The position numbers and the translations under genes were made by a program. The notes beneath the pieces are model-generated. The model worked only from the letters and a program-made list of their open reading frames with translations. It did no database searches and was not told the origin of the DNA. From Rhabdophis nuchalis (lineage: Eukaryota; Chordata; Lepidosauria; Squamata; Natricidae), in the NCBI GenBank assembly GCA_039707465.1, contig CM077644.1, forward strand, positions 83,825,375 to 83,889,374: a stretch of DNA of 64,000 nucleotides, written 5' to 3'. Positions 25,372 through 61,835 of the stretch are shown here, in pieces; within the stretch, counting starts at the first letter, position 1, and each line of letters opens with the position of its first letter.

Positions 25372-26118
25372 TCCTGTTTCCCTGAAAATAAGACCTCCCC
25401 AGATAATAAGCCCAATCAAAACAGGCTCCGACTCAACCCGTCCAAGACTGAGTGGCTGTGGTTTCTGGCGTCACGACATAGCCAGTTGGTTCCATCTCTG
25501 GCTATTGGGGGCGTGTTATTAGTTCCCGCAGAGAGGACCTCCTAAGGGTGCCATCGACTGGTCAATGCCAGCTGGTGACTCCCAGGGGAAGATCCTTCTC
25601 TGTGGCAGGCCCCGCCCTCTGGAATGACCTGTCCCCCGACCTTCGTACAATCACGGACCTACGCTTCTTTCGCCGGGCACTACAAACATAGTTTTTTCAT
25701 GTGGCCAGCCTGGCATAGTCTTTTATTATTGATTTTTAGTTAGGGTCTTAATTATGAGTTTTAGCACAGGCTTTAAAATTGATTTAATTTATTTTTAACC
25801 ATGTTTGATTGTATTTATGACTTCTGTTTTATTATTCCTGTTGCACCGCCCTGAGTCCCATTGGGGAGAGAGGGCGGTATAGAAATAAAATAAATAAATA
25901 AATAAATCGGGCATTTGAGCACATGTGCTAAAATAAGCCCTCCCCCCAAAAAATAAGCTGCCCCTGAAAATATTACAACACAGCAACAGCCATGAGGTGA
26001 CCACGCTCACCACCTCCTGCACCTCAAAAATAATAACACCTTTCCAAAAATAAGGCCAAGTGCTTATTTCAGGGGTCAAAAGAAAATAAGACCCTGTCTT
26101 ATTTTCAGGGAAACACGG
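25372..26118 (+). mobile_element. TA-flanked miniature element, 'gaaaataagac' family, split by a LINE
   Basis: The left end is tcctgtttccctgaaaataa and the right end, inverted, is ccgtgtttccctgaaaataa, with TA at 25370-25371 and 26119-26120. The family sequence is interrupted between aataagcccaatc and gggcatttgagcac by the LINE at 25427-25911. The right TA also borders the next miniature element, so two elements sit end to end. Superfamily by TA target and ends: probably Tc1/mariner. Confidence 0.8.
25427..25911 (+). mobile_element. CR1-group LINE with internal deletion, inserted in a miniature element
   Basis: It begins at RT sequence equivalent to NPTKTEWLWF (LNPSKTEWLWFLASRHSQL) and then jumps at about 25520 to the late segment gagaggacctcctaagggtg, so several hundred bases present in the 56839-59000 copy are missing. 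It then runs through LWNDLSPD-type sequence and the 3' UTR to an (AAAT)n tail. Confidence 0.83.
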
Positions 26119-26411
26119 TAGTCTTCAACTTATGACCACAATTGAGCCCAACATTCCTGTTGTTAAGATGAGTTTGTAACCTCATTGTTAAGTGAATCTG
26201 GCTTCCCCATTGATTTTGCTTATCAGAAGGTTGCAAAATGATCTTAGGACAAAGCAATGGTCATAAATATGAATCAGTTGCCAAGTGTCTGAATTTTGAT
26301 CACATGATCATGTGGCTGCTGGAAAGGTCAGAAATGTGAAAAATGGGCATGAGTCACTTTTTCAGTACTATTGGAATAGTCACTAAGCTAATTGTAAATT
26401 AACAGTTGTAG
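26119..26411 (+). mobile_element. mariner-type miniature element, 'agtcctcgacttac' family, decayed
   Basis: Compared with the better copy at 29114-29508 it shares tagtcttcaacttatgacca, cttccccattgattttgctt, gccaagtgtctgaattttga and gtcactttttcagtac. The right end is eroded. Confidence 0.7.
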
Positions 26412-26877
26412 TTAACAGAGCATTCACTGCTTCATATCTAATTCATCCCAATTAGATGTGAAACAGATATGGAAGCTAGAACACTTTATCATGCTTCCTC
26501 TTTCATCACTTTAAAGCATCTTTGTGATTATTTGTGGGAGATAGAGTTGGAAGGAAGGGAATCAATCAAGGTAGAAGAAACAGTAGGATCCAGAAATCTG
26601 TTATAGGCCATTTACTAATTCTCAACTGCTTGTGCTGTAAAATACCTGTTAATGTTTTCTCTCAAACTTTTGAGTGTGTAATAATGTTCAATTTGGGCTG
26701 CCAGGTGCCTTAACTATGTAAAATTATATAGAACAAAAAAAAGAGTTTTTCTATTCATTTAAAAAGATGTATAAATTGCATAGTTCTGTAAATTATGGAA
26801 ACTGCATATTTTCTGCAAGGAGACTACATTTTTTTGACTAATCAAACAATAGACTATTACATACAGTTAATATTTAT
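26412..26877. other. Unassigned sequence
   Basis: Nothing recognised. Confidence 0.5.
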
Positions 26878-26879
26878 TA

Positions 26880-28723
26880 CTGTGTTTCCCCGAAAATACA
26901 ACATGTCTGGCTAATAAGCCCAACTGGGCTTTTCAGAGCATGAACCACAATAAGCTCTCCCCCCAAAACTAAGCCACCCCCAACTATTTAAGTACGAAAA
27001 GAGCCTGCTGCAAAAACAACAGCAGGCCAGCAATGTGATCACACACACACACGCCTGTTTCTTCTTGTGCAAAAAAACCCTTGCCCACCCCACCCCAATT
27101 GTAAATGCCACCTGCCTGCTTCCCTTCCCTGCCCTCCCTTTAGTGAGGAAGGTGGGTGGGGAAGAAGTGAGGCGTGCCTCTTAACTGCATTCCTCGCCCT
27201 TTTGTCAGGGATTCCCCTTGTAAAAAGCCCTGAGGGCAAATGTCAGGCCATACACAGGGGTTTCCTCCATGTCCATCTCTGTGGGCTCCTGCAGCTCTGG
27301 CACCAGGTGCTTGGCGGCGCACAGGAGGCTCTGGTGCAGGAGCGGGTAACTTGGGCAGAGCACTTGCGCCCAGCTATTGGTCTGCCCACTGTCATCACTG
27401 CCCAGCAGGCCAGAGACCTGGCTGAGGGAAGGCAGAAGTGCCACGGTGAGGCTGGCAGCAGGGGCATGCTCCTTGGATTCGGTTGTCTGCATTTGCCACT
27501 CGGGCTCTGACAGCTCAGCCTGCTGGCTGAGCGCGCAAGCCACCACCAGGTCATAGAGCTCAATGCTAGAGTTGGCCAGCACCAGCCCGGTGGCGCAAAG
27601 GATGGTGACCAAGAAAGACCCTCTATCCTGCAGGAGCAGCGCGTTTACCTCCAACTGCGCCCACGGGTAGTGCGCCAAGCGCATGGCCAGCTCCAGCTGC
27701 AGCACCAGGGCCATCTTGGGTTCCTTCTCGTCCGAATGACGGTGGATGCCGCGGCCAGAGAAAGGAGCCCGGTGGAAGTCGCACACCAGACAGCCCCGCT
27801 GCTTGGATGGAGAGCTGGACCCGCCGCTCCTGCCGCCACCCACTTCATGTGACCTGGCCACGGAGCAGAGGACTTTGGTGCCTCTGTGCAGCTCCATGTA
27901 GGCTGAGCCTTTGGCTTGGCTCAGCAGCCCCATGCAGGCGAAGAGCGGCTGCAGGGCTGAGGGGTCCCAGCTGGCTTGGCCTGCCTCGCTGCTCACCTTC
28001 TGGCCGGTGGGCATGTACAGCAGTGGCAACTGCGACTCCTCCGGACCCTGCACTCACCAGTGATCCAGTGGCATGGCACCCAACATTGGCGCGCCAGCTC
28101 TGGAAGGGGACGGGTGAAGGATAGGCAGCAAGGCCTTTTCCTCTGGCAGTTCCCCCTGCTGGCTTCGGCTCTCTGCGGCTGCCACCACCGCTGCTGCTTC
28201 TTCAAGGTTGGGGTTTCCTGGAGCACTTTTTGCAAGGCTTGGAGTGCTCTGTTCACGGGGAGCATCTGTGGAGATGCTCAGCCATCCAGGCTGTGGTTGG
28301 CCCAAAGGTGCTTTTTTCTCCCCCACACCACCCTGTCATTAAAGGGAGGGCAGGAAAGGGAAGCTGGCAAGCTGCCTTTACAATTGGGGTGGGGAGTGTT
28401 GGGCTGTAGGGCACGCCTCTTACCTTTCCAAGTCTGCCGTTATCCTCGCCATTGTGTCCAGGGAAGCCCCTGGTTAAAAAAAAATCTTTCTTGTAAGTTC
28501 TATCAAACTTCTTGAACTTGTGAGAAGGTTTTTTGTTTTTTTTACCAGTAGCTTCCCTGGACACAATAGTGAGGAACACGATGGCGCTTGAAAGGTAAAA
28601 GGCTCTCCTCACTTCTTGCGTGCCCCAGAAAACAATAAGCCCCTCCCCCCTCTAATAAGCCCAAGGCCATTTTCCGTGGGTCAAAAAAATATAAGACCCT
28701 GTCGTATTTTCAGTAAAACATGG
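26880..28723 (-). mobile_element. TA-flanked DNA transposon carrying a captured EXOSC6 segment
   Basis: The left end is ctgtgtttccccgaaaatac and the right end, inverted, is ccatgttttactgaaaatac. TA flanks both (26878-26879, 28724-28725). The termini and the subterminal 'aataagccc' phrases place it with the element at 25372-26118. Longer inverted arms lie inside the ends: 27085-27150 (ccaattgtaaatgcc...ccctgccctccctttagtg) is the inverse of 28325-28400. Between the arms, about 27165-28315, is the EXOSC6-like sequence plus about 240 bp upstream of its start. No transposase is seen. The structure resembles the host-gene-carrying Pack-type elements known from plants. No poly-A or T tract or retroposition-type target duplication is visible at the edges of the gene segment, so I favour DNA-level capture over a processed copy landing in the element. 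Confidence 0.8.
27205..28074 (-). pseudogene. EXOSC6: EXOSC6 (exosome subunit MTR3) copy with early stop
   Basis: EXOSC6 is one of the six RNase PH-fold subunits of the RNA exosome ring; the ring is catalytically inert in animals and threads RNA to the nucleases. The minus-strand frame holds the family's landmarks in order: MPLDHW-stop at 28074-28054, then (numbered from 28053) GPEESQ at residue 3, GLLSQAKGSAY at 42, GTKVLCSV at 58, CDFHRAPF at 91, YPWAQLEVNALLLQD at 129, NSSIELYDLVV at 161 and SLTVALLPSLSQVSGLLGS at 201. Codon 7 is TGA where the family has Arg, a CGA-to-TGA change, so the natural start is cut off and the next frame has no good ATG. A stretch of about seven residues is missing after NSWAQ (residue 230), and the C-terminus reads on into about 30 extra residues. 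The mammalian gene is intronless, so absence of introns says nothing about origin. Identification is from remembered family sequence. Confidence 0.85.
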
Positions 28724-28725
28724 TA

Positions 28726-29111
28726 TATTAACTGTTATAATTATAATATACATAATTGTATACATAAAGAGAAAGAGAAGTTGAATGGATCTATGGATCC
28801 AACACAATATATTGATGTGTAGAAACAATAACTATTTGTAAGAATAGGAAGGTATCTCTTCACTGTATCAACAGGTATAGTAAAAGGTAGTATAAACAAG
28901 ATTGAGTTAAATTTCTTTTTCTCTTATTTATTGCTTTTAATTTCTTTCATTTACTACTTATTCTTTTTGCATGTTTTGCATAAATTCTTTAACCCCAAAG
29001 AGAATTATACAATATGTATGCCTTTGCATGATTCTGACACAATTACTGAATTTGGGAAAAGTTACTTACAACTTCTATTTTTGAGGAATACACAGTTTTC
29101 AAAACAGAACA
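28726..29111. other. Unassigned sequence
   Basis: Nothing recognised. Confidence 0.5.
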
Positions 29112-29113
29112 TA

Positions 29114-29508
29114 CAGTTAGTCCTCAACTTACAACCACAATTGACCCCAAAATTTCTGTTGCTAAGTGAGACATTTGTTAAATGAGTTTTGCCCCAGTGA
29201 TGACCTTGCTTGCCACCATTATTTTGTGAATCACTGCAGTTGTTAAATTAGAAACCCGGTTTTTAAGAGAATCTGAATTCCCCATTGACTTTGCTTGTCA
29301 GAAGATGGCTAAAGGTGATCACACGACCCTGGGACATTACAACAGTCGTAAGTGTAAGTCAATTGCCAAGCATCTGAATTTTGATCACATGACTGTGAGG
29401 ATGCTGTAACAGTCATAAGTGTAAAAAATAGTCATAAGTCACTTTTTTCAGTGCTGTTGAAACTTTGAATGGTCATTAAACAAATTGTTGTAAGTCCAGG
29501 ACTTCCTA
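29114..29508 (+). mobile_element. mariner-type miniature element, 'agtcctcgacttac' family
   Basis: The left end is cagttagtcctcaacttaca and the right end, inverted, is taggaagtcctggacttaca, with TA at 29112-29113 and 29509-29510. The body is largely palindromic with gtcataagtcacttttttca near its right side. It has no coding capacity. Confidence 0.85.
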
Positions 29509-56838: not shown

Positions 56839-59000
56839 GACCCAGGCTGGCAGCCGAGGAGCTGAGGGCGATGAAACGCCGCAAGAGATGCCTAGAGGGA
56901 AGATGGAGGGCTACTCGCTCCGAATCTGACCGGACACAGGTAAGAGCCCATTTACGGACTTACATTGTGGCGCTGAGAGTGGCCAAACGTCATCATTGCG
57001 CCACTCTCATAGCATCCGCAGAAAACCGCCCTGCCACCCTGTTTAGGGTGACCCGTTCCCTCCTGCAACAGAGGGTGCGGGAAGCCCCGCTACAGGGTAG
57101 AGCAGAGGAATTTGTGACTTTTCTGCAGGACAAAACCGCTCAGATACGGAACGAGCTAGCCCCCATTCGTGGCCCAGTGGGATGCCACGAGGCCGATCTT
57201 GTTTGGGAGGAATTTGACTCCGTTGCTTCCGAGGATATGGACAGGTTACGTGGACGACTGCGAGCCACCACATGTTTATTGGACCCGTGTCCCTCCTGGC
57301 TTGTACTGGCATCCTGGGAGGTGACACGAGGCTGGCTCCAAGAGGTTGTCAACGCATCCTTGAGTGAGGGCTCCTTGCCTGCTTCCCTAAAAGAGGCTAT
57401 GGTGAGGCCCCTCCTTAAGAAGCCCTCTTTGGACCCAGCTCTTTTAACCAACTATCGTCCCGTCTCCAACCTTCCCTTTCTGGCGAAGGTTGTCGAGAGT
57501 GTGGTGGCACAACAGTTTCCCCGTCACCTGGAGGAAGTTGATTATCTAGATCCGCGCCAGTCCGGCTTTCGGCCCGGGCATAGCACCGAGACGGCATTGG
57601 TCGCGTTGGTGGATGATCTCTGGAGGGCCAGGGATGGGGGTTGTTCCTCCATCCTGGTCCTATTAGACCTCTCGGCGGCTTTCGATACCATCGACCATGG
57701 TATCCTATTGCATCGGCTGGGGGGGTTGGGGGTGGGAGGCACCGTTTTACGGTGGTTCTCCTCCTACCTCTCTGGCCGATCGCAATTTGTGTTGGCAGGA
57801 GAGCAGAGGTCGACCCCGAGACCCCTCACATGTGGGGTGCCTCAGGGGTCGGTCCTCTCGCCTCTCTTGTTTAATGCATACATGAAGCCGCTGGGTGAGA
57901 TCATCCGTGGTTTTGGGGTAGAGTACCATCTCTACGCTGATGACACTCAGCTGTATATATCTACCCCAAACCACCCCAACGATGCCGTAGCGGTGATGTG
58001 CCAGTGCCTGGAAGCCGTGCGGATCTGGATGGGAAGTAACGGACTCAGGCTCAACCCGACCAAGACCGAGTGGCTGTGGTTTCCGGCTGCCCGATTCAAC
58101 CAGCTTTCTCCAACGCTGGCCATAGGGGGCGAACATCTTGCCCCTGTGGATGGGGCGCGCAATTTGGGAGTCCTCCTGGATACCCGGCTGTCTATGGAAG
58201 AGCAAGTGACAGCCGTGGCCAGGAGGGCGTTTTACCAGGTTCGCCTGGTTCGCCAATTGCGCCCCCTATTGGATCGGGACGCCCTTCGCACAGTCACTCA
58301 TGCCCTCGTGACATCCCGACTGGACTACTGCAACTCCCTCTACATGGGGCTCCCCTTGAGGTGCACCCGGAGGCTTCAGTTAGTTCAGAATGCAGCCGCG
58401 CGAGCAATTATGGGAACCACTAGGTTTACCCATGTAACACCGCTCTTGCGCGAGCTGCACTGGCTGCCTGTCGTCTTCCGGGTGCGCTTCAAGGTGCTGG
58501 TTATCATCTTTAAAGCGCTCCATGGCTCGGGACCTAGCTACCTGCGGGATCGGATCCTGCCTCACACATCCTCACGGCCGATTCGCTCCCACAGAGAGGG
58601 ACTTCTCCGGGTGCCGTCCACTAGACTTTGTCAGCGGGCGACGCCCAGGGGAAGGGCTCTCTCTGTGGCGGGCCCGGCCCTCTGGAACGACCTTCCCCCC
58701 GATATTAGAACGACCACGGACCTCCGCTCCTTCCGCCTGAAACTAAAGACACATCTTTTCCGCCTGGCCGGCCTAGGGTAGTCTCTCTCTCTATGGGTTT
58801 TTTAATTGTTTATTTATATTGAGTGGGGATTTTTAGTTAATGGGATTTTAGCACAGGTGTTTGTTTAATCTGTTTTAAATTGTATGTATTTTTGTATATT
58901 TATGGTTTTTATTCTCCCTGTGCACCGCCCCGAGTCCCTGTGGGGAGAGGGAGCGGTTAATAAATTCAGTTTTATTATTTTATTATTATTATTATTATAT
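56839..59000 (+). mobile_element. CR1-group LINE, best copy in the window
   Basis: A 5'-truncated element with an open RT frame, the family 3' UTR (58785-58965, with gtgcaccgccccgagtccct) and an (ATT)n tail. The 5' break lies within ORF2 upstream of the RT (the frame stays open back to PRLAAEELRAM), so the endonuclease domain is missing. Six further fragments of this family are in the window. Confidence 0.93.
56871..58781 (+). CDS. CR1-group LINE reverse transcriptase (ORF2, C-terminal part)
   Basis: 636 codons without a stop. Residues 1-190 are the linker before the RT. NYRPVSNLPFLAKVVE and SGFRPGHSTETALVALVDD form the fingers. Motif A LDLSAAFDTIDH has the first catalytic Asp at residue 266, motif B GVPQGSVLSPLLF lies at about 322, motif C YADDTQLY lies at 355-358 with both Asp residues, and LNPTKTEWLWF (motif D/E region) follows. 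The C-terminal part (LREL-HWLPVVFRVRFKVL, GPALWNDLPPDIRT) is typical of CR1/L2/L3 LINEs. The protein would copy LINE RNA at nicked chromosomal DNA. The first ATG is internal to the truncated ORF2, and no endonuclease or ORF1 is attached, so the copy is very probably inactive despite the open frame. The exact clade (CR1, L2 or L3) is not settled by eye. Confidence 0.92.
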   Translation: MKRRKRCLEGRWRATRSESDRTQVRAHLRTYIVALRVAKRHHCATLIASAENRPATLFRVTRSLLQQRVREAPLQGRAEEFVTFLQDKTAQIRNELAPIRGPVGCHEADLVWEEFDSVASEDMDRLRGRLRATTCLLDPCPSWLVLASWEVTRGWLQEVVNASLSEGSLPASLKEAMVRPLLKKPSLDPALLTNYRPVSNLPFLAKVVESVVAQQFPRHLEEVDYLDPRQSGFRPGHSTETALVALVDDLWRARDGGCSSILVLLDLSAAFDTIDHGILLHRLGGLGVGGTVLRWFSSYLSGRSQFVLAGEQRSTPRPLTCGVPQGSVLSPLLFNAYMKPLGEIIRGFGVEYHLYADDTQLYISTPNHPNDAVAVMCQCLEAVRIWMGSNGLRLNPTKTEWLWFPAARFNQLSPTLAIGGEHLAPVDGARNLGVLLDTRLSMEEQVTAVARRAFYQVRLVRQLRPLLDRDALRTVTHALVTSRLDYCNSLYMGLPLRCTRRLQLVQNAAARAIMGTTRFTHVTPLLRELHWLPVVFRVRFKVLVIIFKALHGSGPSYLRDRILPHTSSRPIRSHREGLLRVPSTRLCQRATPRGRALSVAGPALWNDLPPDIRTTTDLRSFRLKLKTHLFRLAGLG

Positions 59001-59289: not shown

Positions 59290-60970
59290 GAGCTAATGCA
59301 CAAATAATCTTACAAAGAGTTCAGACTGGAAAAATATGTAGAAAGGGCCAACCAAAATGATCAGGAAGATCAAAAACATCTGCAAGATAAAGCTAGAGCA
59401 CTTTATCTTTGCAAAAAGACAACAGAGTATGGACACAATTCAAGTGTGTGAAATCATGCATGGCAAGGTCAGTATCTAAATTAGGCAGCTACTAGTTCTG
59501 ACAATAATTTTTCATTCCAGCCTTTCAAAATTTATTTATTTAGTAATCAAATCTATATGATCAGCCATCTATCAAAAGGAATTCTGGGAGGTTAAATAGA
59601 AACTAAATTATGGTTTAAACAGGAGATGGTCAATGTTTGTTTTAAACTGCTGTATTAATTTGACCTAAAATAAATGAACAAACATGTCTATGAAGATTCT
59701 CAGTCACCCAGGTCATAGTTGTCCCAAAGGCTCTCAGCTGAAGAAGTTGCCTCTTGAGAAAGCACCTTTGGGAAAACAAACAAAAAAACAGTGTCATTAA
59801 AAGTATACATTCAGGAATCTGTTCCAAATACAAGAATTCTGAGGATTAAGAGTGGCTTCTTCTGGAAATGTGTCAAAATCTAGTTATTCCAGAAAACTGG
59901 ACTAAGAGAGGGAAATTAACTTTGCAACAACTATAGTATTGTAAATATTATTGTTTCATTGCTTTACTGATCTTATGAAATAGAATGTTGTACTTGTGAA
60001 CCACAACTGAATGTGACTCAGGCATTCTAAAAGTCTCCCAAACAAACCAACAAATAAGTAAAAATGTTTAAATTGAAACTAGAGAAATGAAACAAAAGGG
60101 GGAAAAATGCACCACCATACAGAGAATGTCTTCTGAGTTGCATCACAGTTTTGATAACAAAAACATTAGAAACATGGTTTAATCAGAGAACAGAAGTCTT
60201 AAAGAGAAAAGATTTGATATCCCACTTGTGGGTGGTTGATGAAAGCATGAGTCTTTAGATTTTTAGGGTAATTGTAACCACCCCTAAAATGGTAAAGTAT
60301 TATAGCTAAAACAATTTTAAATCTTTATTAGTTAAGAGACATCAGCTACATTTCTAAACTTATGGGCCACATGTCTGCTTAGAATTGGGTTGATATAATG
60401 CAATGTTGTGGCTGGGGTCCTACTAAACTAAATAGGAATATGTTCATATGCAAATGCTGGGAGATATTTTCATTTAAAAACAACTAGAATTATGCACAGG
60501 AAGTTCTATTAAAAGGGAATTAACAGAAGGTAAATTCTTCATTAGATACTTAAATCTCAGCATTTTTCCATGCAATTAAAGCTAGCATATACTGTAAATT
60601 CACATCCAGTACTTGGAGAAGTTGTTGTTTTGAAAGTCCGGATCCAATTCCATTAGGATTCTGGCTTTGTACATATAATATCTGATCTGTATCAGATGCA
60701 CTCCAGGCTTTCTTTCTTTCTCAGGACAAGCAGGGGGAAAATGTAAGATGTTTTGCTGAGTTGCAATGTGTATAACCGACCAGTTTGTCTAAAAATTGGA
60801 CTGAGTCAATAAAATCCCTGAAGCATGGCATGGAAAAAGTAGACAGGCAGGAAAGTTCTCATAATCTCATACTATCAGCATTAGAAATTATTTAACAAAG
60901 GTGATTAACAATAGCAGATAATTACTTGTGGAACTCCAACTTGGATGTCCCAATGGTACTTTTGCAAGAG
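59290..60970. other. Mostly unassigned; Penelope-like scrap at 59670-59790
   Basis: At 59684-59770 tctatgaagattctcagtca, cccaggtcatagttgtccc and gaagttgcctcttgagaaag match, in inverse or direct order, sequence around 61070-61110 and 61778-61835. The rest is unrecognised. Confidence 0.45.
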
Positions 60971-61106: not shown

Positions 61107-61769
61107 CAGAGGCGTAGCGTGGGGGGTGTAGGGGGGGCCGGCCGCACCGGGCGCAACATCTGGGGGGGCGCGCTCCAGAGACCCGACTCGGAAGCTCTCC
61201 TCCGCGGGTCTCTGGAGTTGGCGGCGGCGGCGCCTGGGCGCGCCTGGGCCGGCGAGAGTCGGGGAGCGAACAGCGGCCAGTAGGGGCCAAACCCTCCCGG
61301 GCCATCCCCCGGCTGAGGCCAGCGCCGGCTCCTCGCACCCGCCAGCACCACCCGAGGGGGCCGGGCGAGACTTAAAGGCGCAGGTCTTTTGAAGCAACGG
61401 CCGTGCGGAGACCCTGGAAGACTCCGTTCCGAGCCAGCCAGAGGAGCGGTGACCTGGGCCCCGCGGCGGCCCGGGAAGACCCTCTTCTTGCCCTGGCTTT
61501 CGGGCCGTCGCCCTCCGTAGAAAGGAGCGTCGGGTGTCCCAGGCCCGCACCACGCAAAGGGCGCCCGCTTCTCCCCAAGGCGAGGCAACAAGTGTCGGAC
61601 CCGGATGGCCGAGCCCTTTGGGCAGCGGCTGCCCACCGGATCCTCGCGGGAGGTGCGTGGGCTCGACACCACAAGAAGAGCTGCCTCCCCCGAGTGCTAA
61701 AATCCACGGGTTAGGGGGCGCAAATTACTTGCCTTGCCCCGGGTGCTGACAACCCACCCTACGCCACTG
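61107..61769 (+). mobile_element. CpG-rich hAT-type element
   Basis: The ends are cagaggcgtagcgtgggggg and, inverted, cagtggcgtagggtgggttg. The 8-bp duplication cttttgaa is perfect (61099-61106, 61770-61777). The interior is strongly GC-rich with many CpGs, unlike all surrounding sequence, and open in several frames on both strands (such as 61001-61672 minus, which runs out of the element). No protein family is recognised. Confidence 0.92.
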
Positions 61770-61835
61770 CTTTTGAAAAAGCACCTTTGTGACAACCATG
61801 ACCTGGATGACTCAGAATCTCCATAGACTTCCAAC

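Follow-up and report, generated by a model that had tools for sequence, protein, structure and literature searches.

Animal DNA transposons that carry host sequence between their ends have been described as Pack-TIRs, 370 of which were counted in 100 animal genomes, 81 of them vertebrate; 208 Pack-TIRs were associated with hAT and 115 with TcMariner elements (Tan et al., 2021; PMC8277862). They are distributed among 55 species, and none is listed for birds or insects. The original prediction for the DNA analysed below had called Pack-type capture rare in vertebrates, a statement that this survey weakens. Animal Pack-TIRs are mostly single-copy, which is explained by gap filling, and four multicopy Pack-TIRs from frog and alligator were ascribed to fork switching coupled with transposition (PMC8277862). 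According to the same survey, a Pack-TIR retains at least 10 bp of each consensus terminus, has both ends from one TIR element around an internal non-element segment of 100–5000 bp, is no retrocopy, and has a parental copy elsewhere in the genome with flanks lacking TEs, an identity of at least 90% being asked for so as to select young cases (PMC8277862). A further described case is Ssk-FB4 of Drosophila, in which nearly the whole of a small gene and its 5′ flank, without about 200 bp of 3′ UTR, lie in a foldback-type element with rearranged repeats (PMC8277862).

The element described here was found in a 64,000-nucleotide stretch of DNA (the window) at positions 26880–28723. It is 1844 bp long and carries a decayed copy of the gene for the exosome subunit EXOSC6/MTR3 on the minus strand. 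Direct reading confirmed the predicted limits and the flanking TA dinucleotides. Outside the cargo, the element and its only relative in the window comprise the following parts:

26878–26879, no strand: left TA of the target-site duplication (direct reading)
26880–26904, plus: left terminal inverted repeat (outer arms alignable; terminal motif)
26880–27005, plus: left part, colinear with the relative at 25372–26118 (local alignment)
27083–27166, plus: inner arm A (inverted counterpart at 28316–28404; score 107, shuffle maximum 32)
27162–27226, plus: inner arm B, common to both halves of the hairpin at 28405–28617 (scores 43 and 48, shuffle maxima 31 and 26)
28316–28404, minus: inverted copy of inner arm A (complementarity and alignment)
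28405–28617, no strand: long foldback (hairpin) formed by two inverted B copies (folding energy)
28593–28723, plus: right part, aligning in order with the right half of 25372–26118 (local alignment)
28699–28723, minus: right terminal inverted repeat (terminal motif; outer-arm alignment)
28724–28725, no strand: right TA of the target-site duplication (direct reading)
25372–26118, plus: cargo-free relative, TA-flanked and split by LINE-derived sequence at about 25420–25907 (direct reading, motif, alignment)

The terminal repeats of 26880–28723 are imperfect and about 20–31 bp long. The motif GTTTCCCYGAAAATAAGAC, derived from the ends of the relative, occurs four times in the window at no more than three mismatches, and these are all four ends of the two elements: it fits the two ends of 25372–26118 without mismatch, by construction, and those of 26880–28723 with 2 and 3 mismatches. 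Dinucleotide shuffles contain it 0.05 times on average, and none of 100 reaches four occurrences. After removal of the LINE-derived insert of the relative, which resembles LINE sequence elsewhere in the window, 26883–27005 (123 bp) and 28593–28725 (133 bp) align with it in order, both with a local score of 101, compared with best scores of 39 (left) and 31 (right) in 200 mononucleotide shuffles. Motif and alignments together bear out the predicted match between the ends of the two elements and the placement of the gene between inverted-repeat element ends. Judged against the sole other element in the window, both ends come from one TIR element, the halves of which are 3–14 bp apart in the relative and separated by about 1.6 kb in 26880–28723. 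Next to the relative, a copy of another dispersed repeat (26119–26376) directly abuts its right end; a second copy lies at 29118–29462, and pieces of the two are 74–86% alike.

Both elements combine a TA target duplication with short terminal inverted repeats, as is typical of Tc1/mariner elements, and from this we infer a superfamily assignment of Tc1/mariner type. No transposase was seen in the element; the two frames scanned outside the gene (28057–28326 and 28256–28651) had no Pfam match, and a protein search with one frame of 25372–26118 likewise gave no match. Searches of the literature for published terminal-repeat letters matching the element's ends and of viral contigs with the terminal motif returned nothing (0 matches in the contigs). 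The flanking stretches ACAGTTAATAT (26863–26873) and ATATTAACTGT (28725–28735), the first A of the latter being the final base of the right TA, form a perfect 11-bp inverted repeat. AT-rich palindromes are frequent sites of TA-inserting elements, and the element probably landed in such a palindromic, AT-rich target.

Inside the outer ends the structure is more involved. The internal inverted arms, noted beforehand as about 70 bp long, are present at 27088–27166 and 28316–28394, with 79 nt and 81% complementarity. Half of the arm of the hairpin 28405–28617 recurs as arm B on the left, so the order is A-B on one side of the cargo and inverted A-hairpin on the other, an asymmetry for which one clean insertion offers no explanation. 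The 213-nt foldback has a folding energy of -101.5 kcal/mol (z -13.5), which none of 200 shuffles matched, and is predicted as a possible source of double-stranded RNA. A search of 26700–28900 against Rfam returned five miRNA families (E 2.4e-7 to 0.14); all were below their gathering scores and all fell on the hairpin, and they are for that reason put down to its shape. Protein searches with the inner-arm frame yielded three candidates, none of them scoring.

The cargo between the arms, 27227–28264, amounts to 1038 bp of non-element sequence, a length within the 100–5000 bp range of Pack-TIRs. It and the adjoining repeat fragment are made up as follows:

27227–27245, minus: junction stretch with a tentative native stop codon at 27243–27245, outside the open frame (tail match)
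27246–28074, minus: coding part of the EXOSC6/MTR3 pseudogene, with its ATG at 28072–28074 (Pfam, structure, protein matches, tree)
28054–28056, minus: in-frame TGA at codon 7 (direct reading)
28075–28264, minus: GC-rich 190 nt upstream of the ATG (GC 0.611, CpG o/e 0.40)
28265–28315, no strand: 51-nt interspersed-repeat fragment (other copies at 61776–61827 and 59687–59730)

The identification of the minus-strand frame as EXOSC6, already proposed from its motifs, was upheld by several lines of evidence. The frame 27205–28053 matches Pfam RNase_PH (1.5e-12), and its best solved-structure match is human EXOSC6 (9.1e-57, residues 2–249). Among 37 protein matches, headed by snakes, 26 are named EXOSC6/MTR3, three have hypothetical or domain names and eight are unnamed. 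Coding homology is firm from 28074 down to about 27262, and the copy shares about 65% protein identity with native snake EXOSC6 (178/273, P0001). In a tree of 32 protein rows, comprising the copy and 31 natives (P0019, P0032, P0033, P0034, P0035, and P0037 were omitted), the copy clusters with the full set of 11 native snake-side rows at 100/98, with 10 of them excluding Candoia at 99/93, and with eight, excluding also Vipera latastei and its neighbor, at 97/88. Since the tree places the copy with the snake-side rows, we infer that the host is most likely a snake and that the capture occurred along the snake lineage, perhaps inside the colubroids. Its finer position is unsure because of its odd composition and its long end branch (1.0 vs. 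a median of 0.11, about nine times as long). A search of viral contigs with P0001, a protein from the snake side, gave 19 pattern matches, none of which was confirmed.

The copy is considerably decayed. Read from its ATG it starts MPLDHW*, where the snake rows have MPLDHRR; the TGA at codon 7, absent from the original prediction, directly precedes the open frame 27205–28053. Behind the stop, codon 21 (28012–28014) has become an ATG from which the frame could restart. The copy is altered at 33 of 127 columns that are invariant in 28 squamate rows, compared with 0–9 such changes in each native row when left out in turn (9/136 in Anolis), and at 59 of 201 residues invariant in nine snake rows. 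For these counts, which rest on the 28 rows including the nine snake-side ones, Naja (altered C-terminus), a Thamnophis fragment, and the marsupial outgroup were also omitted. With sorting that favors the CpG reading where several fit, 38 of the 59 changes agree with CpG to TpG/CpA, eight are other C>T or G>A changes, 12 are other single changes, and one needs more than one; 19 of the 23 snake-invariant arginines are changed. Sites that are conserved in lizards too were not spared (33/127 vs. 26/74; P 0.20 by Fisher's test and 0.25 by permutation within residue classes). All indels in the protein alignment are small and in frame, which is slightly orderly for a neutral relic and a mild counterpoint, although a protein alignment of a single open frame displays in-frame indels only. 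An intact frame under purifying selection, as functional EXOSC6 would have, is thus lacking, given the stop at codon 7 and the decay counts. Because of this stop, the altered invariant residues and the CpG-type decay, the copy is, judged from its sequence, a dead pseudogene and not a working gene, and its pattern of change is what would be expected from neutral decay of a methylated relic.

At its 5′ side, the cargo extends beyond the coding part, which has a GC content of 0.633 and a CpG o/e of 0.42, similar to the 190 nt upstream of the ATG (28075–28264); these are suspected to represent native 5′ UTR or promoter. The predicted length of the upstream sequence, about 240 bp, held (28075–28315), but 51 nt of it are dispersed repeat, and when the upstream 242 nt were compared with N-terminal extensions back-translated from two lizard-side records, the result was no better than chance, as 11/60 and 56/60 shuffles were as good or better, and so did not speak for EXOSC6 flank. 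The upstream frames had no protein family match, and of two such frames compared with solved structures one had no match at E ≤10 and the other a best E of 0.24, to an unrelated chain.

The 3′ side of the cargo bears on how it was acquired. The last recognized element base before the 3′ end of the gene is the inner end of arm B (27226), so that the element resumes no more than 35 nt from firm coding homology and 16 nt from the tentative stop. The match of the last codons alone is within chance (107–108 of 300 shuffles do as well), and the gap between gene and element is probably 16 nt and 35 nt at most. A 3′ UTR of ordinary length would not fit into this gap, and both the 3′ UTR and the poly-A tract of a processed pseudogene are missing: the longest run of T in 27081–27260 is 4, and neither AATAAA nor ATTAAA is present on the gene strand in 26990–27260. 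These features argue against an origin in which a LINE reverse-transcribed EXOSC6 mRNA that was inserted into the element, or in which a retrocopy was captured later. EXOSC6 is a single-exon gene, and the absence of introns is therefore uninformative, although an intronless copy would suit retroposition of such a parent; LINE reverse transcriptase sequence is also present in the window (56841–58778, RVT_1 1.2e-35). Moreover, an exact 10-bp direct repeat is found near the ends of the cargo (27257–27266 and 28210–28219), the longest between 27181–27279 and 28061–28359; only 4 of 300 mononucleotide shuffles contain one of that length. It counts mildly toward a retrocopy, but on the left it overlaps coding homology and on the right it is set about 45 nt inward from the cargo border, which makes it a poor, though still conceivable, target duplication. 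The original prediction had derived DNA-level capture from missing poly-A and missing duplication; the former part stands, together with the lack of a 3′ UTR, while the latter is qualified by this 10-bp repeat. Overall, we regard retroposition as a rather unlikely source of the copy.

Nesting of two elements would account for the inner arms in another way, if arms A and B were the ends of a cargo-bearing foldback element that had landed in an older TA element. The relative at 25372–26118, with its nearly contiguous halves, lacks both arms, the A arms stand in inverted orientation on either side of the cargo, and the hairpin folds independently, all of which would agree with nesting. However, inspection by eye recognized no target duplication around the inner unit, the outer borders of the A arms (27083 and 28404) are not equivalent, and B lies inward of A on the left whereas the hairpin lies outward on the right, so we consider nesting unlikely as well. 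It is, finally, barely conceivable that 26880–28723 holds the genome's sole EXOSC6 and that the element ends are coincidental: nine of the 11 snake-side rows show the gene at full length, the remaining two being one fragment and one row with an altered C-terminus, whereas this copy has a stop at codon 7 and has lost constraint, and element-derived sequence lies close by on both sides.

Capture of a snake EXOSC6 segment at the DNA level by a non-autonomous TA element, followed by neutral decay, is in our view the probable origin of this locus. It is the missing poly-A together with the resumption of the element 16–35 nt past the coding end that favors, though it does not prove, capture at the DNA level over retroposition. 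The capturing element would have been a non-autonomous DNA transposon bounded by TA duplications and short inverted repeats, and the EXOSC6 DNA that it took up would have comprised nearly the whole reading frame and probably part of the 5′ flank, but no 3′ UTR. Template switching while the element was being repaired or replicated would be the likely route and could also have left the duplicated, inverted inner arms that flank the cargo; the presence of both A and B around it might reflect several switches or a foldback element. The captured copy would then have decayed neutrally, chiefly by loss of methylated CpG, and would no longer yield a full EXOSC6 protein. Read from the single copy within the window, the breakpoints and any microhomology or captured flank are putative. 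It is very doubtful that the element, once loaded, transposed and amplified before its death and thereby spread EXOSC6 coding sequence with its promoter through a snake lineage, where, given the strong hairpin next to the cargo, truncated MTR3 or double-stranded or antisense RNA might have acted on the native exosome gene.

Two other loci in the window were noted in their own right. A 663-bp insert at 61107–61769 (GC 0.71, CpG o/e 0.82) has the ends CAGAGGCGTAGC and CTACGCCACTG and is bordered on either side by an 8-bp CTTTTGAA repeat; it looks like a hAT element, in which the CpG-rich interior may represent another captured promoter-like segment. A scan of two of its frames gave no Pfam match above cut-off. 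The stretch 7113–7388 matches 18S rRNA on the minus strand (Rfam RF01960, 69.3 bits, model positions 1194–1485 of 1831) and probably is a displaced piece of rDNA; a long inverted repeat was looked for around it and none was found.

Transposon uptake of host genes is a known process, and 26880–28723 is probably a new example of it. Literature searches gave no match linking EXOSC6 to transposons in snakes and none on Pack-TIR in reptiles. The locus extends the animal Pack-TIRs by a case, most likely from a snake, in which a TA-type element took up a protein-coding sequence almost in full. Once related snake genomes are compared, the stacked inverted arms and the place of the copy in the tree would suit it to testing gap filling against fork switching, and the pseudogene is a warning for the annotation of EXOSC6 copies. 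Compared with native snake EXOSC6/MTR3, the copy is recognizable nearly end to end but differs by its early stop, its small in-frame indels and its changes at conserved residues. With the TcMariner Pack-TIRs, it shares the ends of one element around a host segment of 100–5000 bp, the TA duplication, a short degenerate element, and few bases missing between the halves; it differs in being older and in its duplicated inner arms (PMC8277862). At about 65% protein identity, it probably fails the 90% filter for young cases (PMC8277862). By analogy, the closest parallel in outline is Ssk-FB4. According to the same source, the FB4 element has 9–10 bp duplications, inverted repeats of about 700 bp and an assignment to MULEs instead of TcMariner, and Ssk-FB4 is multicopy and described as a protein family, whereas 26880–28723 has a TA duplication, short repeats, a pseudogene as its cargo, and one copy seen (PMC8277862).
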